Shown here piece after piece: positions 44-23,974 of a stretch of 60,790 nucleotides of DNA. Positions within the stretch are counted from its first letter, which is position 1. Every line of letters begins with the position of its first letter. The DNA lies in assembly GCA_021372615.1 (NCBI GenBank), contig JAJFUB010000110.1:1-60790 (forward strand). The letters are read 5' to 3'. A model generated the notes under the pieces. It searched no databases. It was not told the origin of the DNA and worked only from the letters and a program-made list of their open reading frames with translations. Source of the DNA: a bacterium (GTDB taxonomy: Bacteria > Armatimonadota > Zipacnadia > Zipacnadales > UBA11051). A program made the position numbers and the translations under genes.

Positions 44-3000
44 CTACAGCCCTCCTGCCAGCCACTCCGCCACGCCCTGGCGCTCCAGGGCGTCGGACAG
101 GCGGCGCTTCTGCAGGAGGTGGTCGTACTTCGCCTTCTCCGCGTCGGTCCAGCAGTTCGCCTCGGTGTAGTCGCCACAGTAGGGGATGTTCAGGTCAATC
201 CAGCAGGCCAGCCGCTCGTACTCCTCGGTTGAGAGCTTCACGCCGTGGTGGCCCGCGTCGAGCATGCCCAGCAGGCGACTCTGCGTGGCGCCAACGCTAT
301 TGGGCGGCAGGATCGGGGGCGCGCTCTGGGCGCCCACCCAGTTCACCAGGGGCGTCGGGTGTCCGGCCAGGTAGCCCTGGCCGGGGTTGACGTAGGCGTT
401 CGTGAGTGCGAGGTAGGCATCGCTCCACTGCCGCCCAGAGGCCGCCTCGGGGGTCTGCGTGCCCAGGAGGCTGAAGACCCGGAGGGGCCGGCTATCAGCC
501 GGCCCGCCGTTGCGCATGGGCCGGATGGTATCCGGCCCCTCCACGGCCCCCAGGTCCAGCAGCACCACGGACACGCCCTGGCCGCCGACGGTCTGGTGGC
601 AGTGCACCGCGATCGTGTTCACGCCCCGGTGCAGGGCCGCCGCCGCCGCCGGCTTGACCGCCAGCGGATGGGCGGCGACCACATAGCCCGTCGCCTCCGC
701 CGCCCGCACGCCGTTGAGGTAGATCTCCACGTCCTCATCGTGGTAGGTCATGGCCGCAAGCTGGTGGCCCGCCAGGTCACGGTCGAGGGTGAAGCTGCCC
801 CGCAGCCAGATATCCGGGGTCCGCCAGACGGTCTTGACCTGGATCCCGGGCGTGCCCTGGGTGCCGAAGCCTGGGACGCCGCTCGCCCACCGGCCGGCGT
901 CAGACGCCGGCTGCTCCCAGCCCGTCGGGGGCTTGTCGGTGGTGAACTGCCAGGCCATGTCCGCCGGGTGGAGCGGGGTCGCGCGGTCGAGGCGCTCGCG
1001 GCTGACGACCTCGGCCGCCCCGGGGCGGGACGCGCTGCGGTCGGCATGGCAGGCGATGCAGCGGCGGTCCAGCAGCGGCTGGACCTCGCGGATGAAGCTG
1101 AAGCCGCGCGGGAGGCCATAGAAGGGGCGCAGGGCCTGCGGACCGGCCGGCGTCGCCGGGCGGGAGACGACGGGAGCGGCGGGCTTGGGCTCGTGGCAGC
1201 CGACGCACGAGGCGTACTCGCCGGGCTGGAGCGTGGCCCAGGAGCGCATGGTCTGCACCGCCCGGCCACGGGCATCGAGGGCCTGGAAGTACAGCGCCGT
1301 GCGCGCCGGGGCGGTGAACCAGGCCGACCCGTCCGCCTGTACCTCGGCCTCACCGTAGACGGTCTTCACGTCCCAGGAGCCGTTGCCGACCGCGATCGGT
1401 GTGCTGGCCATGGCAGCCCCGGCGGGGCCGTTGCTGCCGTTGGCACGAATGCCGGCGGCACGGAAGTCGAGTCCCACGACTCGCAGACGCTTGATCGCGC
1501 CCCGCGCCACGCCCGACAGACCCGCCCCCGCATAGATGTCCTGCAGGAAGAACGTGCCCTGGGTCTGGCGGTAGTCTACCGCACTGGGACGGGTCGGCGG
1601 CCGGGCGCGCGGCACCAGCGCGACCGGCTGGTTGCAGGGCCGCGCCGCGTCCCAGGCCAGCAGCTCCCGCCGGCCGTCCATGTCCATCCAGTAGAGCCCG
1701 AAGTGCCCCTTGGCGAAGAGACCCTCGCGCGGCTCGCCCGCCGGGGCATAGGCGACGAGAAAGGTGTGACTGTCCACAGGGTACGGGTAGCCGAACTGCT
1801 CGCCGTCCTGGCCGTAGGCATCCACACGCACCGCCGGGGTGTCGCGCACCGGGGCGATCAACTGCACGCCCTCGTTCTCCTGCTGCCCCCGGGTGCGGTC
1901 CACGACCACCAGCTTGCCGCTCTGGTCGCTGTGGTGGCCGGTGGCGATGGCCAGGAGGCGGTCTTCGCCGGGGAGCGGCCGCGCGTGGATCAGCGTGGTG
2001 GGGAACCAGGAGTTGTTGCCATAGTACTCGGCCTGGCCGGTGCCGTCGGGGTTCATCTGGAACAGCGCCTGGGGGAAGATCTGCCCGCGGTCGTTGTAGT
2101 CCCAGCGCGTGTAGACGACCCGCCCGTCACCCAGTACCTGGGGGCAGTTCGTGTGGACCTGGTCGTAGCCCAGCCGCCGCAGGGCCCGCCCGTCGCGCCG
2201 GCAGAGGTACAGGTTGCTCACTTCCGTCCACCAGCAATCCACTATCTGCACGCAACGGGTGGAGTTGAAGAGGATCTGACCGTCGGGCAGGTACACGCCC
2301 TCATAGTCGGCAAAGCCCAGGCCCTCGGTGATCTGCCGCACCTGCCCGGTCTCCATGTCGTATTCGTAGAGATGGTAGTCATCCTCGCGGTCGGACTTCT
2401 TCCACGAGAACAGGACATGCCGCCCGTCGTAGTCCACGTCGGGGTCGCGAATGACGCCCGTGGGGGCGTCCACGAGGGTCGCCGTCTGCGCGAAGGGCCC
2501 GTCCAGCTTCAGCAGGCACAGTGCCGCGCCGGCCACGAAGTGCCGCTCTGCCTGGGCATCCGACTGCCCCTCGGTGTAGGCGTAGTGGGACCCGCCGAGG
2601 TTGTAGTGGCGGGTGTAGACGAAGGAGCGCGGCTCTCCAGAGCCGCTACCCGTGCGGGCCTGGAGGCCCGCGGTCCAGGAGAGACGCTCCTGCCGCCGGG
2701 CGGTGCAGACACGGTCGTACAGGTCGCGCCAGCGGGCGTCCGTGCCCGGCGCCCCGGCGGCGACGAGGGCCTGCAGCTCCCGCCGGAAGGCCTCTCCGGC
2801 GGCCCGGTCCTGTAGACTGGAGAGGGCGTGCTCGACGGCGGCACGCTCGGCGGCATGGCCCCGGGCCTCGGTGAAGCAGGCGCCGGGGTCAGCGCCGTCC
2901 TGTTGCAGCCAGTCACGCAGGATCTGGTCGCGCGGGGCAGCCTCGGTCCACTGCAGCACCGGCCCGGCCAAGGCCGGCGTTGTCAGCAGAGCGAGGCTGG

Positions 3001-3058
3001 CCATGGCCAACCAGCGTACACCACCGAACGGACGCATCCTGTGCCCTCGCATGGTCAC
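44..3058 (-). CDS. Secreted TolB-like propeller / c-type haem protein with inserted jelly-roll domain (HzsA-like)
   Basis: This is a 1004-residue exported protein. A signal peptide (hydrophobic stretch ending TPALAGP) covers about the first 32 residues. Residues about 140-480 look like TolB/WD40-type propeller blades, with repeated D-P-D-V-D-Y-D-G-like turns. Two c-type haem motifs follow, CVGCH near residue 618 and CIACH near residue 666. Residues about 700-850 resemble a galactose-binding/beta-galactosidase jelly roll (Y-L-N-G-V, N-T-I-A-V-H). The C-terminus has the G-H-H-G-V-K-L-S and C-W-I-D-L-N-I-P pattern seen in proteins annotated as hydrazine synthase alpha-subunit-like in Planctomycetes and related phyla. 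Family membership suggests a periplasmic redox or binding role, but hydrazine synthesis is not implied. It is transcribed divergently from the autotransporter gene. Confidence 0.75.
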   Translation of the reverse strand: MTMRGHRMRPFGGVRWLAMASLALLTTPALAGPVLQWTEAAPRDQILRDWLQQDGADPGACFTEARGHAAERAAVEHALSSLQDRAAGEAFRRELQALVAAGAPGTDARWRDLYDRVCTARRQERLSWTAGLQARTGSGSGEPRSFVYTRHYNLGGSHYAYTEGQSDAQAERHFVAGAALCLLKLDGPFAQTATLVDAPTGVIRDPDVDYDGRHVLFSWKKSDREDDYHLYEYDMETGQVRQITEGLGFADYEGVYLPDGQILFNSTRCVQIVDCWWTEVSNLYLCRRDGRALRRLGYDQVHTNCPQVLGDGRVVYTRWDYNDRGQIFPQALFQMNPDGTGQAEYYGNNSWFPTTLIHARPLPGEDRLLAIATGHHSDQSGKLVVVDRTRGQQENEGVQLIAPVRDTPAVRVDAYGQDGEQFGYPYPVDSHTFLVAYAPAGEPREGLFAKGHFGLYWMDMDGRRELLAWDAARPCNQPVALVPRARPPTRPSAVDYRQTQGTFFLQDIYAGAGLSGVARGAIKRLRVVGLDFRAAGIRANGSNGPAGAAMASTPIAVGNGSWDVKTVYGEAEVQADGSAWFTAPARTALYFQALDARGRAVQTMRSWATLQPGEYASCVGCHEPKPAAPVVSRPATPAGPQALRPFYGLPRGFSFIREVQPLLDRRCIACHADRSASRPGAAEVVSRERLDRATPLHPADMAWQFTTDKPPTGWEQPASDAGRWASGVPGFGTQGTPGIQVKTVWRTPDIWLRGSFTLDRDLAGHQLAAMTYHDEDVEIYLNGVRAAEATGYVVAAHPLAVKPAAAAALHRGVNTIAVHCHQTVGGQGVSVVLLDLGAVEGPDTIRPMRNGGPADSRPLRVFSLLGTQTPEAASGRQWSDAYLALTNAYVNPGQGYLAGHPTPLVNWVGAQSAPPILPPNSVGATQSRLLGMLDAGHHGVKLSTEEYERLACWIDLNIPYCGDYTEANCWTDAEKAKYDHLLQKRRLSDALERQGVAEWLAGGL

Positions 3059-3125: not shown

Positions 3126-3155
3126 TTGACAGATGGCGCGGAACGTACATACTAT
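3126..3155 (+). promoter_or_regulatory. Candidate sigma-70 promoter of the autotransporter gene
   Basis: A consensus -35 box TTGACA lies at 3126-3131. Possible -10 boxes are CATACT (16-base spacer) or TACTAT (18-base spacer). This leaves a 5' untranslated leader of about 135 bases before the ATG at 3295, which is preceded by a good ribosome binding site GGGAGG at 3281-3286. The -35 match is strong and the -10 is moderate. Confidence 0.5.
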
Positions 3156-3294: not shown

Positions 3295-6200
3295 ATGAGT
3301 CGCGCTACCACGACGTCAGGTCTGCGTGCCCGGATAGTCGCGCGTCGTGTTCCTCCTGACCCATCTCGCCCTGCTGGTCCCCCCCTGCACCTGAGTCTAC
3401 TGCTACTGGCGGCACTGTGCGTGGCGGTCGTGTGCTTTGGCCCCGGCACGGCCTGGGCCGATGACGCTGCCACGATCAACGCCGACGGCTCGGTCACGAC
3501 CGAGGCCGTGATTCCGCCGATTCGTGAGGTCCGCAGCGGCAGCAACGGCGACTCCGGCGGCGACGGCGGTGTCGGCATCGGCGCCGACGACGGCGAGGAC
3601 GGCAGCAACGCCAGCTCCATCAGCATCAACGTCGGCGGCGACACCATCTCCCAGCCCGGGGGCTGGGCCTACCCGAGCATCAGCGCCCAGGGCACCGGTG
3701 GCACCGGCGGGCACGGTGGTGACATGTACATCGGCGGCAACGCCGCCGATGGCGGTAGCGGTGGCGATGGCTCCATCATCTCGATCACCAGCGCGGCCAC
3801 GATGTCGCCGACCAACACGCATGGCATCTGGGGCCAGAGCGTCGGCGGCAGGGGCGGAAGCGGCGGCGACTGCGATGTGTCCCTGGGTGGCAGCGCAGGC
3901 GATGGCGGGGCGGCCGGTAGCGGCCGCACGGTCACGATCAACAGCGCCGGCAGCATCACCACCAGCGCCGATAAGTCGAACGGCATCCTCGGGCAGAGCT
4001 TCGGCGGGAAGGGCGGTCAGGGCGGCAACAGCGGCGGCCTGTTCTACGCGGAGGCCGGCGCGGGCGCCAACAGCGGCCTCGGCGGCACAGTCAACATCAC
4101 CAGCGGCGGCAGCATCCAGACCTCCGGTAGCTACTCCTATGGCATCTTCGCCCAGAGCATCGGCGGCACCGCCGGCGGCTCGGGGAGTGGCGGCGGGCTC
4201 TTCGCCTTCGGTTCGGACGGCGGCACCGGCGGCGCCGGCGGCACGGCCGAAGTCACCAATACCGGCACCATTGCCACCACCGGCGCCTACGCCCACGCGA
4301 TCTTCGCCGAGAGCATCGGCGGCGGCGGCGGGAGTTCGGGCGGTGTGGGTGGTGTGCTGGCGCTCGGCGGCGACGGTGGCGGCGGCGGCAGCGGTGGTAG
4401 CGTGTCCATCACCAACAGTGGCGCCCTGAGCGCCACGGGCGCCGGCGCGCGCGGGATCTACGCTCAGAGCATCGGGGGTGGCGGCGGCGACGGCGGAGGT
4501 TCCGGCGGCCTCGTCTCCCTGGGCGGCAAGGGTTCGGGCGGCGGCAGCGGCGGCCACGTGACCGTCACGAACACTGGCGCCATCGTCTCGTCGGGCGATG
4601 CCATCTTCGCCCAGAGCGTCGGTGGCGGCGGCGGCAGCGGAGCCGGGTCGGGCGGCCTCGTGTCCATCGGCGGCTCGGGCGGCGGCAGCGGCAACGGCGG
4701 CAACGTGGAAGTCTCGAGCAGCGGCACGCTCACCGTCACCGGGGCCAACGCATCGGGCATCTTCGCCCAGAGCATTGGCGGCGGCGGCGGTGACGGGCGC
4801 GGCTCGGGCGGGCTGGTGTCCGTGGGTGGCTCGGGCGGTGGCGGCGGCAACGCTGGCAGCGTCACCGTCCACAATGAGGGGGACATCAACTCTACCTGGC
4901 ACGCGATCTTCGCCCAGAGCGTGGGCGGCGGCGGCGGCAGCGGCTCCGGGTCGGGCGGCCTGGTGTCCATCGGCGGCAGCGGCAGCACCGGCGGCAATGG
5001 CGGGAGTGTCACCGTCACCAGCGTCGGCAACCTCACTACCACGCAGCTCGGATCCAGCGGCATCTATGCCCAGAGCGTCGGTGGCGGCGGCGGCAACGGG
5101 GCGGCCTCCGGCGGGGCGGTCGCGATCGGCGGCAGCGGCGGCAGCGCCGGCAATGCCGGCAACGTCTCCGTCACCAGCAGCGGCAACATCACCGCCGTCC
5201 AGCACGCCATCTTTGCCCAGAGCATCGGCGGCGGCGGCGGCGACGGCGGCTTTGCCGGCGGCCTGTTCTCCTTCGGCGGCAAGGGCTTGTCCGGTGGCAA
5301 CGCTGGCGAGGTCTACGTCAGCAGCAGCGGCACCCTACAGACTTCGTCCGATGACGGCGCGGGCATCTTCGCCCAGAGCATTGGCGGCGGTGGCGGCACC
5401 GGCGGTGGCGCCGTGGCGGCCAGCGCCTACGTCTCGCTCAGCATCGGCGGCAAGGGCGGGCCCGGCGGCGACAGCAACAAGGTCACCATTGATAATGGCG
5501 CCGGCAGCATCACCACCTCGGGGGCGAACTCCCAGGGCATCTTCGCCCAGAGCGTCGGCGGCGGCGGCGGCAACGGCGGCTACAGCATCACCGTCGCGGT
5601 CGGCAACGAGGGCTCCCTGGCGGTCGCCATCGGCGGCAGCGGGGGCCAGGGCGGCGACGGCGGCGAGGTCAGCGTCGGCAACGGCAACTCGATCACCACC
5701 AGCGGGGCCAACTCACACGGCATCTTCGCCCAGAGCATCGGCGGCGGCGGCGGTTCGGGCGGCTTCAGCGTCGCGGCCAGCGGCAGCCTGGGCATCTCGG
5801 CCTCGGTCAGCGTCGGCGGCAGTGGCGGCGATGGCGGCAGCGCCAACGCCGTGACCGTCAACACCTCCGGTGATATCGCAACCGGCGGCGAGCACGCCTA
5901 TGGCGTCCTGGCCCAGAGCGTGGGCGGCGGCGGCGGCGACGGCGGCTTTGCGGCGGCGGGGAGCCTCAGCCTGGGCACCGCCATACAGATTGGTGTGGGC
6001 GGCGGCGGCGGCAACGCCGGCAATGCCTCCAGCGTAAGCCTGACCAGCGGCGGCAGTGTCGCGACCAGCGGCGCTGACGCGCACGGCCTGGCCGCCCAGA
6101 GCATCGGTGGCGGCGGCGGCACGGGCGGGTTCAGCGTGGCCGGAGGCATCTCGGCCCTCGGCGCCACGGTCGGGGCCAGCGTCGGCGGCTTCGGCGGCGG

Positions 6201-9200
6201 CGGCGGCGCGGCGGGCAACGTGGCCCTCGGCAGCACCGGCGCGACGATCACGACCGCCGGCGAGCGCTCCATCGGCATTCTCGCCCAGAGCCTGGGCGGC
6301 GGTGGTGGTGACGGCGGCTTCAGCGTTTCGGGCGGCATCTCCAACGCCATCAGCGTCAGTCTCAGCCTCGGCGGCTTCGGCGGCAGCGCCGGCGCCGCAG
6401 GCACCGTGGATGTCACCAACTCCAGCAGCATCGGCACCCAGGGCGCCGACTCCGGCGGCATTCTCGCCCAGAGCATCGGCGGCGGCGGCGGCTCGGGTGG
6501 CTTCAGCGTAGCTGCCGGCATCTCCGCCTCGGGCGCGCAGATCGGGGCGAGCGTCGGTGGCTTCGGCGACAGCGGCGGCGACGGCTCCAGCGTGACAGTG
6601 AACACCACCGGCGTGCTGATCGAGACGCAGGGCGATCGGTCCAGTGGCGTGCTGGCCCAGAGCCTGGGTGGCGGCGGCGGCAACGGCGGCTTCAGCGTGG
6701 CCGGCGGCATCGGCAACTCCGCAGCCGTGAACCTCAGCCTCGGCGGGTTCGGCGACGGCGGCGGCGCAGGCGGCAACGTCAGCGTCACCAGCGCGGGCGA
6801 TGTCAGCACGGCGGGGGCCGACTCGCATGGCCTGGCCGCCCAGAGCATCGGCGGCGGTGGCGGCAACGGCGGCTTCAGCGTGGCTGGCGCTCTGAGCAGC
6901 TCCAACGGCGTCAGCGTCAGCGTCGGCGGCTTCGGTGGCGGCGGGGGCAGCGCAGGCAGCGTCGCGGTCGCCAATACCGGGCAGACCATCCAGACCGTGG
7001 GCGACCGTTCCACCGGCATCCTGGCCCAGAGCCTGGGCGGGGGCGGCGGCAACGGCGGCTTCAGCGTGTCCGGCGCCATCGGCGGCGGCGGCGGCCTGGC
7101 TCTCAGCCTCGGCGGCTTCGGCGGCGACGCCGGCAGCGCCAGCACGGTGGATGTCAGTAACGCAGCCGACATCGGCACCTCCGGCGCGCAGTCCCATGGC
7201 ATTGAGGCCCAGAGCATCGGCGGGGGCGGCGGCAACGGCGGCTTCAGCGTGGGCGGCAGCGTGGGCGGCGCGGCGCAGGTCAGCGCCAGCGTGGGCGGCT
7301 TCGGCGGCGGCGGCGGGGATGCGGCCGCGGTCACCGTGACCAACACCGGCTCCCTGCTCACCACGGTCGGCGACGGCTCGTGCGGCATCCTGGCGCAGGC
7401 CCTGGGCGGGGGCGGCGGCAACGGCGGCTTCAGCGTGGCGGCCGGGATCAGCGGCTACGCGGCCGTCAACCTCGCTGTCGGCGGCTTCGCCGGCGACGGC
7501 GGGGCGGCGGGCAATGTGAGCGTCAGCAGCACGGCAGACACGTATACGCAGGGCGCCGAGGCCCATGGCATCATGGCCCAGAGCATCGGTGGCGGCGGCG
7601 GCTCGGGCGGCTTCGCCGTCACGGGCGGGATCTCCGTCCAGGGCGCACAGGTCGGGGCCAGCGTCGGTGGCTTCGGCGGGGGCGGCGGGGACGGCCTGAG
7701 CGTCACGGTGAACAACACCGGCATGGCGCTCCAGACGATCGGCGACCGCTCGACAGGCGTCCTGGCCCAGAGCATCGGTGGGGGCGGCGGCGCGGGCGGC
7801 TTCAGCGTATCCGGTGGCATCAGCGATGTCACCTCTGTGAACCTGAGCCTCGGCGGCTTCGGCGGCACGGGCGGCAGCGGCGGGGTCGTCAGCGTCAGTA
7901 GTGCGGCGGACGTCGCGACGGGCGGGGCCGAGTCGCACGGCCTGGTCGCCCAGAGCCTGGGTGGCGGCGGCGGCGCGGGTGGCTTCAGCGTCGTGGGCGG
8001 CATCAGCGCCGAAGGCGCGACGGTCGGCATCAGCGTCGGCGGGTTCGGCGGCGACGGTGGGGCCGGCGGACAGGTCACACTCACCAACTCCGGGACGCTG
8101 CTCACGACCGCCGGGGAGCGCGCCTACGGCATTCTGGCGCAGAGCATTGGCGGCGGCGGCGGCGACGGCGGCTTCAGTGTGGCGGGCGGCATCAGCAACT
8201 CCGCCACGGTCAACCTGAGCCTCGGCGGCTTCGGCGCCAATGCCGGCATCGCCGACACGGTCTCCGTCACCAACAGTGCCGACATCGGCACCACCGGCGC
8301 CGACTCCGGCGCCATCGTCGCACAGAGCATCGGCGGGGGCGGCGGCTCGGGCGGCTTCAGCGTCACCGGCGGCATCACGGTAGGCGGGCCTAGCATCGGG
8401 GCAAGCGTGGGCGGGTTCGGTGACGGCGGCGGAGACGCCGGCGCGGTCACGGTCAACAACACCGGCGCCACCATCAGCACCCAGGGCGACCGGGCGGATG
8501 GCATCCTGGCCCAGAGCCTCGGCGGTGGCGGTGGCAATGGTGGCTTCAGCGTCGCGGCCGGCATCAGCGAGTCCGCGGCCGTGAACCTGAGCCTCGGCGG
8601 CTTCGGCGGGGGCGGCGGCAACGCCGGCACCGTGGGTGTGAGCAACGCCGCCAACATCGGTACCACCGGACATGACTCCAGCGCCGTGGTGGCCCAGAGC
8701 ATCGGCGGGGGCGGCGGCAACGGCGGCTTCAGCGTCACCGGCGGCATCTCCACCAGCAGCGCGGCAGTAGGCGCCAGCGTCGGCGGCTTCGGCGCCGGCG
8801 GCGGCAACGCGGCGGCTGTGAGCGTGAGCAACACCGGCGCGATCATCAGCACCGAGGGCGACCGGGCCGACGGCATCCTGGCCCAGAGCCTCGGTGGCGG
8901 CGGCGGCAACGGCGGCTTTAGCGTGGCCGGCAGCATCAGCAACTCGGCAGCCGTGAACCTGAGCCTTGGCGGCTTCGGCGACACCGGCGGCGCCGCCGGC
9001 ACCGTGGACGTCAGCAACACGGCCGACGTCGGCACACAGGGCGCCGACTCCGGCGGTCTCGTGGCGCAGAGCATCGGCGGCGGCGGTGGCAACGGCGGCT
9101 TCAGCGTGACGGGCAGCATCTCCACGAGCAGTGCGGCGGTCGGCGCCAGCGTCGGCGGCTTCGGCGGCGGCGGCGGCGACGCAGCGGCTGTGACGGTCAC

Positions 9201-12200
9201 CAACACCGGGTCGGTCATCACCACCGCCGGCGACCGGGCCGATGGCGTACTGGCCCAGAGCCTCGGCGGCGGTGGCGGCAACGGCGGCTTCAGCGTGGCG
9301 GCCGGGATCAGCAACTCCGCGGCGGTCAACCTCAGCCTCGGCGGCTTCGGCGACGGCGGCGGCAACGCCGACACGGTGGCGGTCAGCAATACCGCCGAGG
9401 TCGGCACTCAGGGCGCCGACTCCGGCGGCCTTGTGGCGCAGAGCATCGGCGGCGGCGGCGGCAACGGCGGCTTCAGCGTCACGGGCGGCATCTCGACCAA
9501 CAGCGCTGCCGTGGGGCTCAGCGTCGGCGGCTTCGGCGCCGGCGGTGGCAACGCGGCGGCCGTGACGGTAGACAACACCGGGGCTGTCATCACGACGGCC
9601 GGCGACCGCGCGGACGGCATCCTGGCTCAGAGCCTGGGTGGCGGCGGCGGCAACGGCGGCTTCAGCGTGTCGGCCGGGATCAGTAATTCGGCGGCGGTGA
9701 ACCTCAGCGTGGGCGGGGCCGGCGATGGCGGCGGCAACGCGGACAGCGTGACCGTGGGCAGCCTGGCCAGCATCAGCACCCAGGGCGCCGACTCCCGTGG
9801 CATCGCGGCGCAGAGCATCGGCGGGGGCGGCGGCAACGGCGGCTTCAGCGTCGTGGGCGGCGTCTCGACCAACAGCGCCGCAGTCGGGCTGAGCGTCGGC
9901 GGCTTCGGTGGCGGCGGTGGGGCGGCAGGCGCCGTCAGCGTCACCAGCGGCGGCGTAAGCACGGCGGCCGTCGGCGACGGCAGCGGCACCACCATCTTCA
10001 CCGACGGCGACCGGTCCGACGGCATCCTGGCGCAGAGCATCGGCGGGGGCGGCGGTAACGGTGGCTTCAGCATCGCGGGCAGCATCAGCAAGTCCGCTGC
10101 AGTCAACCTCAGCCTCGGCGGCTTTGGCGGGAATGCCGGCGCGTCGGGCACCGTAGACGTGACCAGTTCAACTAGCATCCACACTGCGGGCGCCGACTCC
10201 AATGGCATTCTGGCGCAGAGCATCGGCGGGGGCGGCGGCAACGGCGGCTTCAGCGTGACCGGCAGCATCTCCACCGACAGCGCGGCGGTAGGCTTGAGCA
10301 TCGGCGGCTTCGGCATGGGCGGCGGCGACGGCTCGGCAGTCACCGTGACAGACACCGCGCAGTACATCCACACGCTGGGTGACCGGTCCGCGGGCATCCT
10401 GGCCCAGAGCCTCGGCGGCGGCGGCGGCAACGGCGGCTTTAGCGTCGCGGGCGGGATCGCCAAGTCCGCCGCCGTCAACCTCAGCCTCGGCGGCAGTGGC
10501 GGCGGCGGTGGCAACGGCAGCACGGTGGGTGTCAGCAGCACCTCCACGGTCATCACTGAGGGCGCCGACGCCAACGGGATCGCGGCCCAGAGCATCGGCG
10601 GGGGCGGCGGCAACGGTGGCTTCAGCGCCGTCCTGGGCATCTCCACCGACAGTTCGGCGGTCGGCCTGAGCGTCGGCGGCTTCGGGGCCGGCGGCGGCAA
10701 TGGCGGGGCCGTGACCCTGGCGAGCACCGGGGACTCCGTCGTGACCTCCGGCGATCGGAGCAACGCGATACTCGCGCAGAGCGTGGGGGGCGGCGGTGGT
10801 AACGGCGGCTTCAGCGTGGCCGGCGGCATCAGCAAGTCCACCAGCGTCACCCTCGCTCTCGGCGGCTGGGGCGCGCAGGGCGGGGACGGCTCCAGTGTGA
10901 CCGTCACCAGTTGCAGCAACCTGTCCACCAAGGGAGCATACGCCTACGGCATCCTCGCCGAGAGCGTGGGCGGTGGCGGCGGGGCGGGCGGGTTCAGCGT
11001 CGCTGGGGGCATCAGCACCGACGGCAACGCCATCGGCGCTTCCATCGGCGGCTTCGGCGGTGGCGGCGGTGACGCCGGATCGGTGAGTGTCACCAACACC
11101 GGCCAGGTCGTCGTCACCTCCGGCGACAACGCTGGGGGCGTGGTGGCCCAGAGCGTGGGCGGTGGTGGCGGGGCCGGCGGCTTCAGCATCGCTGGTGGGG
11201 CCAGCAAGAACCGGGCGCTCGCATTCAGTGTTGGCGGCTTCGGCGGCGAGGGCGGCGACGGTGGCGATGTGACCCTGTCCAACAGCGCGAGTGTCGCAAC
11301 CTATGGCGGCGTATCGTGGGGCGTCCTGGCGCAGAGCCTCGGCGGCGGCGGCGGCATCGGCGGCTTCAGTCTCGCCGGCAGCTTCTCCAAGGAGAGCGGC
11401 GGCCTGACCGCCAGCATGGGCGGTTTCGGCGGCGCGGGCGGCGATGCCGCGACCGTGCTGCTGACCAACACCGGCCAGGTCTACACCGAAGGTGACGGCT
11501 CACACGGTGTCTTCGCCCAGAGCGTCGGTGGCGGCGGCGGCGCCGGTGGCTTCAGCGGCTCGTTCACCGGCGGCTTCGGCGACGGGACGAACCTCGCTGT
11601 CTCCGTCGGCGGCGCCGGTGGCGTGGCCGGCAACGGGGATCAGGTCACTCTCAACAACAGCGCCCTGGTCACCACGCACGGGGCGGCGGCATACGGCCTG
11701 TTCGCCCAGAGCGTGGGTGGCGGTGGCGGCGATGGCGGTGGCAGTCTGGCGGCAGCCATCGGCACGGACGAGAAGCAAGTCAACCTGTCGCTCTCCATCG
11801 GTGGCTTCGGCGCCGCGGCGGGCGATGGCGGCGCCGTGACCCTCAGCAATACGGGCGATGTCGTCACCGAGGGCGACAAGTCGCACGGGATCCTCGCCCA
11901 GAGCATCGGTGGTGGCGGCGGCACGGGCGGCTTCAGCGCCAGCGGCGCGCTGGGCAAGGGCACCAACTCCAAGGACATCTCGCTGAGCCTCGGCGGGTTC
12001 GGCGGCGCGGGCGGCAATGGCGGTACAGTGACCGTCACCAACTCCGGCCACATCCAGACCCTTGCCGGGTTCGATGGGTTCATAGACCCCGACGAGTTGG
12101 CCGAGGAGCCGTCCATTGACCCGATCGGCGCGTACAGTTACGGCGCTGTCGGCATCCTGGCGCAGAGCATCGGTGGCGGCGGCGGTAACGGTGGGTATGC

Positions 12201-15200
12201 CTTCGCCGGGTCGGTCGGCGGCACCGAGGCCAAGTCCATCGCGGTCAGCATGGGCGGCTGGGGTGGCGCCGGCGGCTACTCCAGCGACGTGACCGTGGTG
12301 AACGACGGCCAGATTGACACTCACGGGATCCAGTCCACCGGCATCCTGGCGCAGAGCATCGGCGGGGGCGGCGGCAACGGCGGCTCGTCCATGTCCCTGG
12401 GCGCTGGCTTCGGCGGCGGCAAGGACACCTACAATGTCAACGCGGCAGTCTCCATCGGCGGCGTCGGCGGCAGCGGCAACTACGCCGGCAATGTCTCGGT
12501 CACCAGCAACGCGGCGATCGTGACGCGCGGCGATGACTCCTACGGCATCCTGGCTCAGAGCATCGGCGGCGGCGGCGGCAACGGTGGCGACAGCTTCGCT
12601 GTCACCATCGCTCGCGGCGCGGCCAACCAGGGCCACTCGATTGACGCGAATGTCTCGGTCGGCGGTGTCGGCGGTGACGGCAACGTCGCCGGCAACGTGG
12701 ACGTCACCAACACGGCGACCATCGCGACCCTCGGCAACCTGTCCGACGGCATCCGCGCCCAGAGCATCGGCGGGGGCGGCGGCAACGGCGGCGCGGCGCG
12801 GTCTCTCGCCATCCTCCTGAAGCAGGGCAGCAGCAAGCTCCAGGAAGGCGAGACGATGGGCAGCAACTGGAAGCTGCAGATGGTCATCGGCGGCAACGGC
12901 GGTACGGCGGCCGACGCCGGCGAGGTGGTCGTCAACAACTCCGGCATGATCTACACCGAGGGCGCCTGCTCCAACGGCATCTTCGCCCAGAGCGTGGGCG
13001 CCGGCGGCGGCGCCGGCGGCGACGGCATCCTCGGCACCGGCACGATGGCCGACGGCCCGTGGGCCATCGCCGGCCTGATCCTTGAGGAAGCCGGCGGCGG
13101 CGGGAACAAGATCGTCAAGACGGCCCTGGGCATGGCACGTGACCTGTCGCTGGTCGTTGGTGGTAGCCAGGGCGCCCATGGCGACGCCAAGGACGTGACT
13201 GTCACTAACAGCGGCACCATCCTGACCAAGGGGAATGCCTCGATCGGCATCCTCGCCCAGAGCGTGGGCGGCGGCGGCGGCTTGGCCCGCAGCTTCGCCC
13301 AGTCCGAAGACTCGACGGGCAAGGCGGTCATCGGCGCGACGGGCAAGTGCGGCATCGGCGGCTCGGGCGGCGCCGGAGGCGACGCAGGCGCCGTCACGGT
13401 GACCAACAGCGCCCGGATTGACACCTATGGCGACGGCGCCCACGGCATCGAGGCGCAGAGCGTCGGCGGTGGCGGCGGGATCGCAGGCAATGTGGACCGC
13501 TGTCTGGCCGATGTGTTCGGCTTCGCCGGCATCGGTCTCGGCCTGGCCATCGGCGGCGATGGCGGCGCGGGTGGCAACGGCGCGGCCGTCAGCGTCACCA
13601 GCAGCGGCGACATCGAGACCCGTGGCATTGCCGCCTGTGGCATCTACGCCCAGAGCGTGGGCGGCGGCGGTGGCGTCAGCGGCAACAACGGGTACGGCAT
13701 CAACTTCAGCGGCAGCGTGGGCGCCCCGGGCGATGCCGGCGACGTGACCGTGGTGGTGGACGGCAACATCCGCACCGCCGGCCCGAACACGTTGGGTGAG
13801 GACGGCACCATTGACTACACCAAGGGCTCGCACGGCGTCTTCGCCCAGAGCGTAGCCGGCGACGGCAAGGCCGGAAATGTGACGATCTCCGTCACCGGCA
13901 ACATCATCGCCGAGGGCCAGTACTCCTGCGGCATCGTCGCGCAAAGCCAGGGCCTGCAGGGGAAGGGCGACATCACCATCAACATCGCCGAAGGCGGCTC
14001 GGTATCTGGCGGCACCGGCGAGCATGTGGGCGCGATCGTCCTGATGGACGGCAACAACAACACCGTCAACAACTACGGCACCATCCGGTCGCTCAACGGG
14101 ATAGACGGCATCGCGGTGCTCGGCAACCGCACCATCGCGACGGTCAACAACTGGGGCGTCATCATCGGCAACATCGAGATGAACATCGAGGCCGACACGG
14201 TCCAGGGCGACACCGGGACGGCCTCGGTCACTACCGCCGCCGTCGTGACGCAGCAGATGACCAACAACGAGGGCTGCACCATCCTGTCCGGTCAGGTCAT
14301 TGACCTGAACGGCGGCCTGTTCACCAACGCCGGCCTGCTCAGCCCCGGCGGCACGGAGAAGCTGCAGGTGACGAACCTGACCGGTGACTACACGCAGACC
14401 GCGACCGGCTCGTTCGATCTGCAGGTAGACCTCTCCAACCCGGGCGGCCAGGACGCGCTGCTCACCACCGGCAAAGTCACGCTGGACGGCCAGGTGAACC
14501 TGACGCTGCTGCACCCCGGGTCCATCCAGTCCGGACACCGCGACGGGGTGCTCTTCTCGGGCAACCAGGCGATTGACGTGTCGGGCGTCGAGTTCAACCA
14601 CCCGACCTCGGCGATCGTGAGCTTCGACCTGACCCCGGGCACGAACAACGTGCTGCTGGCGACCGACGTGGACTTCGCCCCCGACGGCCTGGCCCGCAAC
14701 CAGGGCCAGATCGGCGACTGCTTCAATCGCATCCAGGCTCCCGGCGTGGAGACCGACATGTCTCCGATCGTGTCCGAGCTGGTGGGCATGGAGACCGTCG
14801 CCGAGGTGGCGGCAGCCTACGACCAACTCTCCCCGGCCGCCCACGACGCGGCGACGCGGGCGACGATAGACACCACGCAGAGCACCGTGGCGAACGTGCT
14901 GCAGCACCTGCAGCGGCGCCGCGAGGAAGTCCGCCGGCAGGTGGTGCCGACCGCGCTGGGCGATGGCAGCAAGCCGCAGCACGAAGCGGTGAACGCCTTC
15001 TGGGCGGACCACTACATCGAGAACGGCACGCAGGATCCGGACCCGGGTCTGCCGGGCTACAAGTTCGACCTGCAGAGCAACAGCATGGCCTACGAGCACC
15101 GGCTGTCCGGCGGCTTCACGGTCGGCGCCGCGTACATCCAGAATGCGCTCGACCTCACGGTGGACATCGGCCCGGCGAAGGCCAGCGTCAACAGCAAGCT

Positions 15201-15810
15201 GGGCGCGCTGTACGCCGATTACCTGGGCCGCCAGTACTACGTCGAGGGCGCCCTGGCCATCGGCTCGCACGAGTTCCAACTGATGCGCGGCATCGCGGTC
15301 GGGTCCTACGTGCGCAATGCCGAGGGTAGCCATGACGGCAGCTCCTTCTCGGGGCTGTTGACCGCCGGGCTATACCGGCGCATGGGCTCGGTCAACGTGG
15401 ACCCGTACGCCTCCCTGTACTACACCTCGCTGCATGAGGACGGCTTCACCGAGACCGGCGCTGACGCCGTGAATCTGATCGTGGACAGTCGCACTTCGCA
15501 GTCCCTGGCCACCGAGCTGGGTGTCCGGGTGACGTGCGTGATCCCGTCGGGCGAGAACGTGTTCGTGCCGGAGTTGCTGCTCGCGTGGAACCATGAGTTC
15601 TGCGGCGCGGAGGACGTCTCGGCGGCCTTCGCCGGCGCGCCCACCGAGTTGTTGACCATTGACGGGCGCGAGCGCACCGACCGCTTCCGCATCGCCGCCG
15701 GCGTCACGTTCACCGGCCACAACGTATCCGTGGCGGGGCGCTACTTCGCCGAGTTCGGCAGTGGCTACGACAACCACGGTGGCCTGGCCAGTCTGCTGGT
15801 GGCCTTCTAG
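3295..15810 (+). CDS. Giant glycine-rich repeat autotransporter (type V secretion)
   Basis: This 4171-residue protein has three visible parts. A long N-terminal export signal ends near residue 55 (P-G-T-A-W-A followed by D-D). A passenger to about residue 3550 consists of about 56 repeats around the core AQSIGGGGGNGGFSV. A spacer follows with a helix typical of the family (Y-D-Q-L-S-P-A-A, then V-A-N-V-L-Q-H-L-Q-R-R). The C-terminal 275 residues look like an autotransporter beta-barrel of amphipathic strands ending in a terminal phenylalanine (LLVAF). The family rule is that the barrel inserts in the outer membrane and the passenger, a predicted beta-helix, reaches the cell surface. Adhesion or a surface layer is the likely use but is inferred. 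The start is fixed by the GGGAGG site 8 bases upstream. The gene is about four times longer than common autotransporters. Confidence 0.9.
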   Translation: MSRATTTSGLRARIVARRVPPDPSRPAGPPLHLSLLLLAALCVAVVCFGPGTAWADDAATINADGSVTTEAVIPPIREVRSGSNGDSGGDGGVGIGADDGEDGSNASSISINVGGDTISQPGGWAYPSISAQGTGGTGGHGGDMYIGGNAADGGSGGDGSIISITSAATMSPTNTHGIWGQSVGGRGGSGGDCDVSLGGSAGDGGAAGSGRTVTINSAGSITTSADKSNGILGQSFGGKGGQGGNSGGLFYAEAGAGANSGLGGTVNITSGGSIQTSGSYSYGIFAQSIGGTAGGSGSGGGLFAFGSDGGTGGAGGTAEVTNTGTIATTGAYAHAIFAESIGGGGGSSGGVGGVLALGGDGGGGGSGGSVSITNSGALSATGAGARGIYAQSIGGGGGDGGGSGGLVSLGGKGSGGGSGGHVTVTNTGAIVSSGDAIFAQSVGGGGGSGAGSGGLVSIGGSGGGSGNGGNVEVSSSGTLTVTGANASGIFAQSIGGGGGDGRGSGGLVSVGGSGGGGGNAGSVTVHNEGDINSTWHAIFAQSVGGGGGSGSGSGGLVSIGGSGSTGGNGGSVTVTSVGNLTTTQLGSSGIYAQSVGGGGGNGAASGGAVAIGGSGGSAGNAGNVSVTSSGNITAVQHAIFAQSIGGGGGDGGFAGGLFSFGGKGLSGGNAGEVYVSSSGTLQTSSDDGAGIFAQSIGGGGGTGGGAVAASAYVSLSIGGKGGPGGDSNKVTIDNGAGSITTSGANSQGIFAQSVGGGGGNGGYSITVAVGNEGSLAVAIGGSGGQGGDGGEVSVGNGNSITTSGANSHGIFAQSIGGGGGSGGFSVAASGSLGISASVSVGGSGGDGGSANAVTVNTSGDIATGGEHAYGVLAQSVGGGGGDGGFAAAGSLSLGTAIQIGVGGGGGNAGNASSVSLTSGGSVATSGADAHGLAAQSIGGGGGTGGFSVAGGISALGATVGASVGGFGGGGGAAGNVALGSTGATITTAGERSIGILAQSLGGGGGDGGFSVSGGISNAISVSLSLGGFGGSAGAAGTVDVTNSSSIGTQGADSGGILAQSIGGGGGSGGFSVAAGISASGAQIGASVGGFGDSGGDGSSVTVNTTGVLIETQGDRSSGVLAQSLGGGGGNGGFSVAGGIGNSAAVNLSLGGFGDGGGAGGNVSVTSAGDVSTAGADSHGLAAQSIGGGGGNGGFSVAGALSSSNGVSVSVGGFGGGGGSAGSVAVANTGQTIQTVGDRSTGILAQSLGGGGGNGGFSVSGAIGGGGGLALSLGGFGGDAGSASTVDVSNAADIGTSGAQSHGIEAQSIGGGGGNGGFSVGGSVGGAAQVSASVGGFGGGGGDAAAVTVTNTGSLLTTVGDGSCGILAQALGGGGGNGGFSVAAGISGYAAVNLAVGGFAGDGGAAGNVSVSSTADTYTQGAEAHGIMAQSIGGGGGSGGFAVTGGISVQGAQVGASVGGFGGGGGDGLSVTVNNTGMALQTIGDRSTGVLAQSIGGGGGAGGFSVSGGISDVTSVNLSLGGFGGTGGSGGVVSVSSAADVATGGAESHGLVAQSLGGGGGAGGFSVVGGISAEGATVGISVGGFGGDGGAGGQVTLTNSGTLLTTAGERAYGILAQSIGGGGGDGGFSVAGGISNSATVNLSLGGFGANAGIADTVSVTNSADIGTTGADSGAIVAQSIGGGGGSGGFSVTGGITVGGPSIGASVGGFGDGGGDAGAVTVNNTGATISTQGDRADGILAQSLGGGGGNGGFSVAAGISESAAVNLSLGGFGGGGGNAGTVGVSNAANIGTTGHDSSAVVAQSIGGGGGNGGFSVTGGISTSSAAVGASVGGFGAGGGNAAAVSVSNTGAIISTEGDRADGILAQSLGGGGGNGGFSVAGSISNSAAVNLSLGGFGDTGGAAGTVDVSNTADVGTQGADSGGLVAQSIGGGGGNGGFSVTGSISTSSAAVGASVGGFGGGGGDAAAVTVTNTGSVITTAGDRADGVLAQSLGGGGGNGGFSVAAGISNSAAVNLSLGGFGDGGGNADTVAVSNTAEVGTQGADSGGLVAQSIGGGGGNGGFSVTGGISTNSAAVGLSVGGFGAGGGNAAAVTVDNTGAVITTAGDRADGILAQSLGGGGGNGGFSVSAGISNSAAVNLSVGGAGDGGGNADSVTVGSLASISTQGADSRGIAAQSIGGGGGNGGFSVVGGVSTNSAAVGLSVGGFGGGGGAAGAVSVTSGGVSTAAVGDGSGTTIFTDGDRSDGILAQSIGGGGGNGGFSIAGSISKSAAVNLSLGGFGGNAGASGTVDVTSSTSIHTAGADSNGILAQSIGGGGGNGGFSVTGSISTDSAAVGLSIGGFGMGGGDGSAVTVTDTAQYIHTLGDRSAGILAQSLGGGGGNGGFSVAGGIAKSAAVNLSLGGSGGGGGNGSTVGVSSTSTVITEGADANGIAAQSIGGGGGNGGFSAVLGISTDSSAVGLSVGGFGAGGGNGGAVTLASTGDSVVTSGDRSNAILAQSVGGGGGNGGFSVAGGISKSTSVTLALGGWGAQGGDGSSVTVTSCSNLSTKGAYAYGILAESVGGGGGAGGFSVAGGISTDGNAIGASIGGFGGGGGDAGSVSVTNTGQVVVTSGDNAGGVVAQSVGGGGGAGGFSIAGGASKNRALAFSVGGFGGEGGDGGDVTLSNSASVATYGGVSWGVLAQSLGGGGGIGGFSLAGSFSKESGGLTASMGGFGGAGGDAATVLLTNTGQVYTEGDGSHGVFAQSVGGGGGAGGFSGSFTGGFGDGTNLAVSVGGAGGVAGNGDQVTLNNSALVTTHGAAAYGLFAQSVGGGGGDGGGSLAAAIGTDEKQVNLSLSIGGFGAAAGDGGAVTLSNTGDVVTEGDKSHGILAQSIGGGGGTGGFSASGALGKGTNSKDISLSLGGFGGAGGNGGTVTVTNSGHIQTLAGFDGFIDPDELAEEPSIDPIGAYSYGAVGILAQSIGGGGGNGGYAFAGSVGGTEAKSIAVSMGGWGGAGGYSSDVTVVNDGQIDTHGIQSTGILAQSIGGGGGNGGSSMSLGAGFGGGKDTYNVNAAVSIGGVGGSGNYAGNVSVTSNAAIVTRGDDSYGILAQSIGGGGGNGGDSFAVTIARGAANQGHSIDANVSVGGVGGDGNVAGNVDVTNTATIATLGNLSDGIRAQSIGGGGGNGGAARSLAILLKQGSSKLQEGETMGSNWKLQMVIGGNGGTAADAGEVVVNNSGMIYTEGACSNGIFAQSVGAGGGAGGDGILGTGTMADGPWAIAGLILEEAGGGGNKIVKTALGMARDLSLVVGGSQGAHGDAKDVTVTNSGTILTKGNASIGILAQSVGGGGGLARSFAQSEDSTGKAVIGATGKCGIGGSGGAGGDAGAVTVTNSARIDTYGDGAHGIEAQSVGGGGGIAGNVDRCLADVFGFAGIGLGLAIGGDGGAGGNGAAVSVTSSGDIETRGIAACGIYAQSVGGGGGVSGNNGYGINFSGSVGAPGDAGDVTVVVDGNIRTAGPNTLGEDGTIDYTKGSHGVFAQSVAGDGKAGNVTISVTGNIIAEGQYSCGIVAQSQGLQGKGDITINIAEGGSVSGGTGEHVGAIVLMDGNNNTVNNYGTIRSLNGIDGIAVLGNRTIATVNNWGVIIGNIEMNIEADTVQGDTGTASVTTAAVVTQQMTNNEGCTILSGQVIDLNGGLFTNAGLLSPGGTEKLQVTNLTGDYTQTATGSFDLQVDLSNPGGQDALLTTGKVTLDGQVNLTLLHPGSIQSGHRDGVLFSGNQAIDVSGVEFNHPTSAIVSFDLTPGTNNVLLATDVDFAPDGLARNQGQIGDCFNRIQAPGVETDMSPIVSELVGMETVAEVAAAYDQLSPAAHDAATRATIDTTQSTVANVLQHLQRRREEVRRQVVPTALGDGSKPQHEAVNAFWADHYIENGTQDPDPGLPGYKFDLQSNSMAYEHRLSGGFTVGAAYIQNALDLTVDIGPAKASVNSKLGALYADYLGRQYYVEGALAIGSHEFQLMRGIAVGSYVRNAEGSHDGSSFSGLLTAGLYRRMGSVNVDPYASLYYTSLHEDGFTETGADAVNLIVDSRTSQSLATELGVRVTCVIPSGENVFVPELLLAWNHEFCGAEDVSAAFAGAPTELLTIDGRERTDRFRIAAGVTFTGHNVSVAGRYFAEFGSGYDNHGGLASLLVAF
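3823..13950 (+). repeat. About 56 tandem glycine-rich coding repeats
   Basis: Each unit carries a G-[IV]-[LFA]-A-[QE]-S-[IVL]-G-G-G-G-G core. Counting the core by eye gives about 56 copies. Spacing measured between cores is 49-52 codons in the first block (for example 4609, 4765, 4912) and 61-63 codons in the central block (for example 8509, 8692, 8881). In the central block two unit types alternate, giving a higher-order period of about 124 codons. One type has GDR..GILAQSL and N-S-A-A-V-N-L-S-L-G-G-F. The other has GADS..AQSI and S-S-A-A-V-G-A-S-V-G-G-F. The last units degenerate toward the barrel. Confidence 0.9.
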
Positions 15811-15850: not shown

Positions 15851-16462
15851 ATGACAAGGACCGCAAGAACCCTGTCGCTCGCCGCTGCCGCGCTGTGGCT
15901 GTGCGTCTGTGCGTCAGCGCAGCAACAGCCGGCTGCGCAGGGCGCCCCCGCACAGCAGCAACCCGCCCAGCGGCAGATCGTACTGACGATCATGGCCCCG
16001 CAGGTCAACAACTTCGCCCCGGGCATTGACGCGACGGTGTCGCTGACCCAGGAGCAGGCCAACCAGGTCGCCGCGGCCTATCGCGAGACCCTCGAGTCCG
16101 CCGCGGCCATCCTGGCCCAGATGGTGCTGCAGGACAGCAGCACCTCGCCCGAGCAGCGGCGCGTCGCCACCATCACGTTGCAGCAGGCGCAGTTGGCCTT
16201 CCAGGCGCGCGCCCGCGCGGTCTTCACCGATCAGCAGCGGGAGCTGATTGACAAGGTGCAGGCCGCCTTCACCAAGGTCGCCGAAGCAGTGCAGGCCGAC
16301 ATGAACGCCCGCATCAAGGCCAACTTCGCCGCGGAGCTGGAGCGCATTCTGACCCCCGAGCAGAAGCAGGCCATGATGAAGGCCCGCCGGGCCATCGAAG
16401 AGGCCCAGGCCAAGCAGCAGCAACAGCAGCAGCAGAAGCCGGCTACCCCGCCCGCGCAGTAG
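15851..16462 (+). CDS. Spy/CpxP-like periplasmic protein with poly-Gln tail
   Basis: This 203-residue protein has a signal peptide ending around C-A-S-A-Q. A mostly helical body contains two L-T-x-x-Q elements (SLTQEQANQ and ILTPEQKQA), the hallmark pattern of Spy/CpxP-type LTXXQ proteins, which are periplasmic chaperones or stress sensors. Low-complexity Q/A/P stretches follow the signal and fill the C-terminus (seven consecutive Gln). It starts 40 bases after the autotransporter stop with a GGAGTG ribosome site, so co-transcription is likely. A chaperone role for the giant passenger in the periplasm is a reasonable inference from position. The family call rests on motif and composition only. 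Confidence 0.6.
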   Translation: MTRTARTLSLAAAALWLCVCASAQQQPAAQGAPAQQQPAQRQIVLTIMAPQVNNFAPGIDATVSLTQEQANQVAAAYRETLESAAAILAQMVLQDSSTSPEQRRVATITLQQAQLAFQARARAVFTDQQRELIDKVQAAFTKVAEAVQADMNARIKANFAAELERILTPEQKQAMMKARRAIEEAQAKQQQQQQQKPATPPAQ

Positions 16463-16575: not shown

Positions 16576-17070
16576 ATGGCGACCTCTACCGACCGGCAGC
16601 TCTCCCTCGACCTGTGGCAGGCCATGCTGAACGCCTTCCTCCGCCTGCGACAGAGCATCCGCCCGATCTTTGCGGCCCATGACCTGACCGGGCCACAGTG
16701 GCGCGTGTTCCGCCTGCTGGGCGAGCAGCGCGGCCCAGGCCTGACGCCGGGACAGATCAGCGAGGCGCTGCACGTGACGCCGGGTAATATCACGGGCGTC
16801 GTGGACAATCTCGATGAGGCGGGGTTGGTGCAGCGGCTGCCTCATCCTGACGACCGACGCGCCCAGTTGATCGTGTTCACCCCGGCCGGGGAGGCGCTGT
16901 ACCGCCAGGTGCGACCGGCCTTCGATAAGCGTGTTGCGGAGCTGTTTGCGTGCCTGGAGCCGGAGGAGCGACGGGCGATGATTGCGGGGCTGGAACGGCT
17001 GTTGGCCCACGCCGACCGCGTGGACCCCGACGCTGCGGACCGTCCGTGTGGGACGGGGGCGCCGCGATGA
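16576..17070 (+). CDS. MarR-family transcriptional regulator
   Basis: This is a 164-residue winged-helix regulator. An N-terminal helix for dimerisation precedes the DNA-binding core around residues 45-115. The recognition region (P-G-Q-I-S-E-A-L-H-V-T-P-G-N-I-T-G-V-V-D-N-L) is followed by the wing (L-P-H-P-D-D-R-R-A-Q-L). These are standard MarR features. MarR proteins usually repress adjacent efflux genes and are released by small aromatic ligands. The stop codon overlaps the ATG of the ABC exporter in ATGA, so the two are translationally coupled. It heads a five-gene efflux operon and probably controls it. Confidence 0.88.
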   Translation: MATSTDRQLSLDLWQAMLNAFLRLRQSIRPIFAAHDLTGPQWRVFRLLGEQRGPGLTPGQISEALHVTPGNITGVVDNLDEAGLVQRLPHPDDRRAQLIVFTPAGEALYRQVRPAFDKRVAELFACLEPEERRAMIAGLERLLAHADRVDPDAADRPCGTGAPR

Positions 17071-19019: not shown

Positions 19020-19081
19020 TCACCAGGCGCACTCGCGCCACAGCGCCGGCGCTGCAGCGCCCGCCCAGAGGGTTCCTCGCC

Positions 19082-20791: not shown

Positions 20792-20818
20792 CGCCAGACA
20801 CCGAGAGCCAGAGCCCCC

Positions 20819-23800: not shown

Positions 23801-23974
23801 GCCGAGGTGCAGGCCCCGATGGCCACAGCGGTCATCGGCGGGCTGGCCACCTCCACCGTGCTCACGCTGTTCGTCGTGCCGGTCGTGTACTCGCTGCTGG
23901 ATGACATCGCCGGGTACCTGCAGAAGAAGCGCAACCACAGCGCGCCTGAGGCCTCGTTAGGAACTGATGACTGA
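20819..23974 (+). CDS. RND efflux pump, HAE1/AcrB type
   Basis: This 1051-residue protein has the complete RND layout. TM1 follows the N-terminal sequence N-I-A-R-I-S-V-S-R-P-V-A. A first periplasmic loop, a TM2-TM6 bundle, a second loop and a TM7-TM12 bundle follow. TM4 carries the proton-relay acidic pair in GLIVDDAVVVIEN near residue 400. The sequence TFTLLYLCGFTLNTMSLGG and the C-terminal TLMLVGIVVKNGILLVDYTN are hallmark HAE1 motifs. The family exports drugs, detergents or hydrophobic compounds by proton antiport as a trimer. Its stop overlaps the TolC start by one base, so adaptor, pump and channel form one transcriptional and translational unit. Confidence 0.93.
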   Translation: MNIARISVSRPVAITMLVAAPTLMGLVCLFRLPVDLLPKVSLPTIAVSTTWPNVAPQEIESQVTRPIEEAVSAAPNLYEVSSTTSEGSSSVRVRFQWGTDIGQAAVDVLQLVERAKQSFPTDDTLKTPIIRKFDPNQFPIMVYGVTGESDLVKLRTIFENQIVPIVESANGVASASVTGGDERAIIVDVDPARLQAHQLSANDIIRRIAQENMNLPAGIGKQGKTEYVIRSLGWLLSPDELRRLPVATVNGQQVTIGEVAEVRDSHEETRVYSRFNQEPAVGLVVAKQSGANTIETATEVAKKIERIKQLYPNLRFGLSYNQGEYIANSIKDVKISALIGGFLAIMILLFFLRNVRSTIVVGLSIPVAIVSTFTLLYLCGFTLNTMSLGGLALATGLIVDDAVVVIENIFRHLERDRKGIWDAAVDGTNEILSAVFASTWTVMVVFLPLVFIKGQAGQMYMQFALVVIFSLGISYMVAATLVPMLATRLISGEAHHESLNGTSPHLTLGQRIFRTWGRWFEGLDATYRAGLQWAMHHRLWVVGGALGITLATIPLMTQIGRELMPMADSGDFTVSIKMPIGTSLETTNRVIKQAEKIVFSHPDVAAGFAAAGTGVRMTGIGGSQAPFQGGLSVKLKRDRKSSTLDVIRQLRRKLSVLPGVTARLEQNDLVSMLMTGGGQNVEVNIFGNDLSVLSRLADDAMARIRTIPGLENLDVNWDEAMPEIQWQVNRQKANQLGCSFSDIADTIDTATNGSIASYYQEAGFQYPIIVQVPERRRKTVEDMLSLIVTPSGGGPGVVLSQVATAKYGVGPSQITRLNRQRYISVRGAPQGRSAGEVQADVEKALADMTMPSGYYWDWGTHQKQRAEEFGGLWLAVILAIGLIYMLLASQFEAFLHPFTILLTVPLAATGVALGLFLTGRSFGLTAFIGTLMLVGIVVKNGILLVDYTNRLRARGLPRDKALLQAGPTRLRPILMTASAAILGMLPIATGIGEGAEVQAPMATAVIGGLATSTVLTLFVVPVVYSLLDDIAGYLQKKRNHSAPEASLGTDD

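Follow-up and report, generated by a model that had tools for sequence, protein, structure and literature searches.

A giant autotransporter with strictly alternating repeat units in an Armatimonadota genome

Introduction

Why would a bacterial protein of 4171 residues be assembled from two kinds of repeat unit in strict alternation, and how does it come to stand in a phylum otherwise without the autotransporter domain? We examined a 60,790-nucleotide stretch of Armatimonadota DNA (the window), in which an earlier note, made from the sequence alone, had described a giant autotransporter with a dimeric repeat. We consider it probable that this is a type Va autotransporter displaying a surface-anchored fibre of one-rung units, whose alternating charges would act as a salt-bridge ladder.

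Gene layout and secretion class

The gene is an uninterrupted frame of 4171 codons (Table 1). Judged by eye from the translation, the N-terminus resembles a signal peptide, with a hydrophobic run and a putative cleavage site between AWA and DD. When the C-terminus was scanned alone, it matched PF03797 over positions 1-254 of the 255-position profile (E = 2.2e-39), which bears out the designation as an autotransporter; the full-length protein gave no match to Pfam or NCBIfam, barrel included. The passenger is predicted to be beta-helical from structural models and their beta-helix matches (Z about 12). By its sequence, the protein is an autotransporter with a C-terminal PF03797 barrel, probably of type Va. 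The host encodes a BamA-type Omp85 protein (E = 2e-47) and TamB (E = 3e-17), two outer-membrane assembly genes that adjoin each other on another contig (C44). Two long antisense frames lie inside the gene (5713-8673, minus strand, 986 codons; 11500-15333, minus strand, 1277 codons) and are probably shadows of high GC content.

Table 1. Features of the autotransporter locus in window coordinates
Feature	Position	Strand	Basis
HZS_alpha-domain protein, divergent upstream gene	44-3058	-	domain scan
Sigma-70-like promoter match 5' of the autotransporter gene	3126-3155	+	consensus match only: TTGACA, 16 or 18 nt spacing, 10/12
Giant autotransporter gene, 4171 aa	3295-15810	+	open frame, translation, PF03797
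Predicted signal peptide with a long n-region (residues 1-55), cleavage after A-W-A	3295-3459	+	read from translation
Early array of 101-residue dimers (units 4-10), unit lengths 52 and 49 in turn	4306-5370	+	unit lengths, self-identity; 303-nt tandem period, score 720; model pLDDT 95.5
Central array of alternating unit types, A with 63 aa and B with 61 aa (units 12-42)	5545-11328	+	leave-one-out scores
Core with a 124-aa period (14 A-B dimers, units 15-42)	6094-11328	+	unit lengths, self-identity, leave-one-out scores
Three modelled dimers (units 27-32), each unit predicted to combine one beta-helix coil with glycine-II segments	8320-9435	+	pLDDT 96.8, pTM 0.90; structural matches
Irregular tail, units 43-54, 62-90 residues	11329-13842	+	unit lengths, identities
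Final anchor with the barrel linker and pre-barrel segment	13843-14997	+	translation; partly within region common to other C-termini
Autotransporter beta-domain PF03797; protein end ...LLVAF	14998-15744	+	domain scan
203-aa secreted protein, Spy/CpxP-like by its three LTxxQ-like motifs, 40 nt downstream of the autotransporter gene	15851-16462	+	motifs LTQEQ, FTDQQ, LTPEQ at residues 65, 125, 167
Gene run immediately downstream of the autotransporter region: MarR-type regulator, ABC exporter, HlyD-type MFP, AcrB-type RND pump, OEP	16576-25395

Two unit types alternate along the array

The anchor [AG]QS[VIL]GG occurs 55 times and delimits 54 complete units; the glycine-rich tandem units of the earlier note are thus real, and its count of about 56 is slightly high. 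As a DNA pattern, the anchor has 47 matches in the window and none in 100 shuffles. Unit length changes by block, from 53-52 residues at the start through 52/49 (units 4-10), 58-61 (units 11-14) and 63/61 (units 15-42) to the long units of the tail. The early units of 49-52 residues were correctly described, and in units 4-10 they follow the order 52, 49, 52, 49, 52, 49, 52. Self-identity of this early array is 0.63 at a shift of 101 residues versus 0.41 at 52, and the identities of its 7 units alone fail to split them into two types (parity p = 0.31).

The central block shows the alternation most clearly. Its self-identity is 0.605 at a shift of 124 residues versus 0.354 at 62, and the mean identity between units at lags 1 to 4 is 0.56, 0.68, 0.56 and 0.66, a same-parity excess matched by none of 10,000 label shuffles. 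Clustering that was blind to unit order returned the series 1212..., and the leave-one-out profile score changes sign at each of the 31 consecutive units 12-42. The claimed alternation of 61- and 63-residue types in a 124-residue dimer is therefore upheld: unit order is not random and the 124-residue period is present. Three units of this run depart from the 63/61 lengths: units 19 and 21 have 62 residues each, and unit 35 has 74. Type A differs from type B by two single-residue insertions, by a strand reading GASV rather than NLSL, and by GDR instead of GAD at positions 56-58. No alternation was found in the lengths or unit identities of the tail (units 43-54).

A widespread repeat family

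A two-anchor DNA pattern run over 84,980 species genomes gave at least 120 matches. Those listed belong mostly to Alpha-, Beta- and Gammaproteobacteria, with several MAGs of Desulfobacterota or 'Deltaproteobacteria' and a few Synechococcus and Planctomycetota. A related-locus search with the whole 4171-aa protein returned no relative, and tblastn of the repeat alone against plasmids returned no match, probably because of low-complexity filtering. In viral contigs, single matches to the anchor pattern look like chance; the exception is one contig (L046) with 12 matches.

The relatives include Sphingobium sp. TKS, whose protein on pTK1 has 7174 aa (WP_145907795.1), and a Desulfuromonadaceae MAG with a frame of 7133 codons, the closest among the matches listed. 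This AQSxGGGGG family has in common with the window protein the anchor, the irregular tail, a PF03797-type C-terminus and, in several members, the block order from 52-residue units through units of 58-66 residues to the tail; the 52-49-52 motif recurs in Geobacter and Mesorhizobium. Open frames reach 7000-7400 codons in relatives among the matches listed, so the scale of the protein, which had been called unusual, is not exceptional. C-terminal identity between the window protein and its family relatives is 25-30%. A C-terminal tree places the window protein with Desulfobacterota at modest support (84/86) and 28% identity, which indicates that any transfer would not be recent.

Strict pairing is not a family trait. 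Among 40 members with at least ten consecutive units, a strong higher-order period was found in five: the window protein (period 2), three sphingomonads (period 3) and the marine gammaproteobacterium HTCC2148 (period 4). Compared with the period-3 Sphingobium protein and the Desulfuromonadaceae protein, in which period 2 is weak and local, the window protein alone has two strict types of 63 and 61 residues. Relatives with period 3, period 4 or none argue against the dimer as an intrinsic design. Family members carry no annotation more specific than 'autotransporter outer membrane beta-barrel domain-containing protein', and no relevant paper on the anchor motif was found in the open-access literature searched. 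We conclude that the window protein is a strictly alternating variant inside a common family that is undescribed in that literature.

Two further observations concern family members. The cyanobacterial assembly of Synechococcus sp. UW140 contains giant members at two loci (L123, L158), putatively its own, whose frames run to about 6000 and 7200 codons. On Sphingobium pTK1, the giant autotransporter is followed after 75 nt by a hypothetical gene of 2175 codons that lacks the anchor (L004, 13903-20427).

Neighboring units avoid like charges

If units are stacked in register, equal columns of neighboring units should avoid like charges. We computed this for 101 non-redundant relatives, leaving out the window protein. 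The ratio of opposite to same charges was 1.04 at lag 1 (bootstrap 0.82-1.36) and 0.32 at lag 2, against 0.485 +/- 0.032 with unit order shuffled. In 33 of 35 testable proteins, opposite charges made up a larger fraction at lag 1 than they did at lag 2, and the effect was maximal at a column offset of 0. The strongest column is family column 53, which corresponds to window position 58; among 113 charged neighbors there in the relatives, 99 pairs are opposite versus 14 same (37 of the 40 contributing proteins).

In the window protein, position 58 is Arg in type A and Asp or Glu in type B. Along the array it reads ...DRDRDRQGERERDRDRDRDRDRDRDR, and 22 of 22 charged neighbors are opposite. We propose that this series may form a ladder of salt bridges between rungs. 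The period-3 sphingomonad arrays (Sphingobium) have N, F and G at column 53, and a charge ladder would thus be one solution and not a universal one. The charge rule connects the alternation with direct contact of neighboring rungs and explains why added pairs are tolerated.

Predicted fold of the repeat units

The AlphaFold model of units 27-32 (27 aligned rows) is confident, as is that of early units 4-10 built from a separate alignment of 11 rows (pTM 0.89; Table 1). VIA-align ranks the same structure first for both, the whole 126-residue bundle of nine PPII helices in a springtail antifreeze protein (PDB: 7jjv). The central and early models superpose on it at 1.6 and 1.8 Å over 125 residues (Z = 13.8 and 13.2), and the bundle is spread over 4.1-4.3 units, as expected from two glycine segments per unit. 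Right-handed beta-helices come next, the Vag8 passenger first: six central units align over their full length with about 175 of its residues (Z = 12.2) and seven early units with about 180 (Z = 12.6), although Z values of 12-14 between repeat proteins can reflect shared arrangement. This points to about one coil per unit. Foldseek with the model gave no match in the PDB under E = 0.03, and the C-terminus had no match among PDB sequences. Two BFVD matches (E = 2e-4 and 5.5e-4) were rejected (TM 0.07, rmsd above 30 Å).

The simplest reading is that each unit comprises one right-handed beta-helix coil of about 26 residues plus two glycine-II segments, with one rung per unit suggested by the alignment ranges and the charge statistics. 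Types A and B would then be alternate rungs. Modeling three adjacent dimers, a check put forward in the earlier note, yields a confident predicted structure but not the two faces of a beta-helix imagined there, since both models have one unit per coil. Classical passenger coils have about 20-30 residues, and 62 residues could therefore hold two or three of them in a conventional narrow beta-helix with A and B on separate faces. Beta-helix passengers are indeed the nearest full-length structural matches. We nonetheless regard this reading as very unlikely, given the zero-offset charge effect and the structural matches: the six or seven units span 175-180 residues of Vag8 and not 370, the rest matches the PPII bundle, and direct stacking best accounts for charge avoidance between equal columns at lag 1.

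Under the one-rung fold, the protein resembles known systems in part. Vag8 (7akv), pertactin (1dab) and Fap2 (9qe7) share type Va secretion and a beta-helical passenger with it and align with the models at Z = 10-12.6. Their passengers have no tandem 62-residue rungs, and the matches leave the glycine-II part of the model uncovered. The model's glycine segments superpose on the whole 7jjv bundle in geometry, with no homology claimed; in the window model, unlike in 7jjv, a single chain passes by turns through these segments and beta-helix strands. Nothing beyond this geometry points to ice binding. A related idea of glycine-rich PPII bundles has been put forward for PE_PGRS33 and the phage S16 adhesin (PMC7830552).

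For the family as a whole, we consider it about as likely as not that the fold is composite, each solenoid turn of about 62 residues being half beta-helix coil and half polyglycine-II, with opposite charges alternating between rungs to stabilize it lengthwise, that the window protein represents this fold most regularly, and that pairwise amplification was selected because neighbors must differ.

Age and growth of the array

Between dimers, pS averages 0.42 and dN/dS is 0.2-0.7, and identical amino acids use the same codon in 63-68% of cases versus the 59% expected from codon usage. Synonymous sites are therefore near saturation and the array is old. Growth by duplication of pairs, as suggested in the earlier note, fits the lag pattern of unit identities, but such growth would have to be old. 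On the evidence of these substitutions, the difference between A and B has outlasted most synonymous memory, and the pattern appears to be an ancient one kept by selection.

Alternation could instead be neutral: duplication of pairs would have left as its relic a higher-order repeat whose two rung types have no structural reason. The periods of 3 and 4 in relatives imply that multi-unit duplication is general, and unit similarity drops slightly with distance, both as such a relic would have it. We nonetheless judge this unlikely. The A and B residues persist although synonymous sites are near saturation, opposite charges also alternate in relatives whose period-2 repeat is weak or missing, and independent relatives converge on D/R alternation, as seen at one site.

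Proposed mechanism and role

We propose that, after Sec-dependent targeting by the signal peptide, the C-terminal barrel would be inserted by BAM and the fibre-like passenger exported while remaining anchored at the surface. Each unit of about 62 residues would make one full turn, its right-handed coil flanked by two polyglycine-II segments that stack beside it as a slab, so that equivalent positions of successive units lie directly atop each other. Like charges would be disfavored between neighboring rungs, which in this protein may have become fixed as two alternating rung types through selection on ladder stability. Pairwise growth would preserve the complementarity, whereas duplication of a single unit would put like on like. 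At the usual 4.8 Å per rung, about 55 rungs would add up to a stalk of some 26 nm.

Type Va passengers usually serve as surface-anchored stalks or adhesins, and by analogy the 4171-aa protein may do so too. If our reading holds, a simple physical rule, that neighboring rungs differ electrostatically, would tie repeat amplification to structure in very long bacterial surface proteins. It would also describe a mixed beta-helix/polyglycine-II solenoid with no solved example among the structural matches obtained here.

Host phylum and genomic setting

PF03797 was found in one of 291 genomes of the phylum, in the window protein only, and the repeat was not found in the other 290. The host is therefore as unusual for type V secretion as the earlier note had supposed, a lone autotransporter between native genes. 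Such isolation, together with a bin contamination of 2.9%, might suggest a misassembled or contaminant piece foreign to the phylum. The neighboring genes make this extremely improbable. The upstream gene (44-3058) is 65% identical to its counterpart in a genome of the same family, the downstream AcrB and MFP are 73% and 56% identical to those of a same-order genome, and the 203-aa protein has distant relatives within the phylum. Based on these flanking matches, the contig is native to the host phylum. MFP and AcrB are also kept in same-order genomes that lack the autotransporter.

The 203-aa protein has no Pfam match above cut-off. Its motifs make it a candidate Spy/CpxP-like periplasmic helper, which we offer as a lead only. 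The HZS_alpha-domain family to which the upstream gene belongs has many copies per genome in the order, with at least 20 matches in one genome (G275). Elsewhere in the window, an SMI1/KNR4 (SUKH) domain protein (49292-50071) adjoins two genes, one alpha-L-fucosidase-like and one DUF1559 pseudopilin-like.
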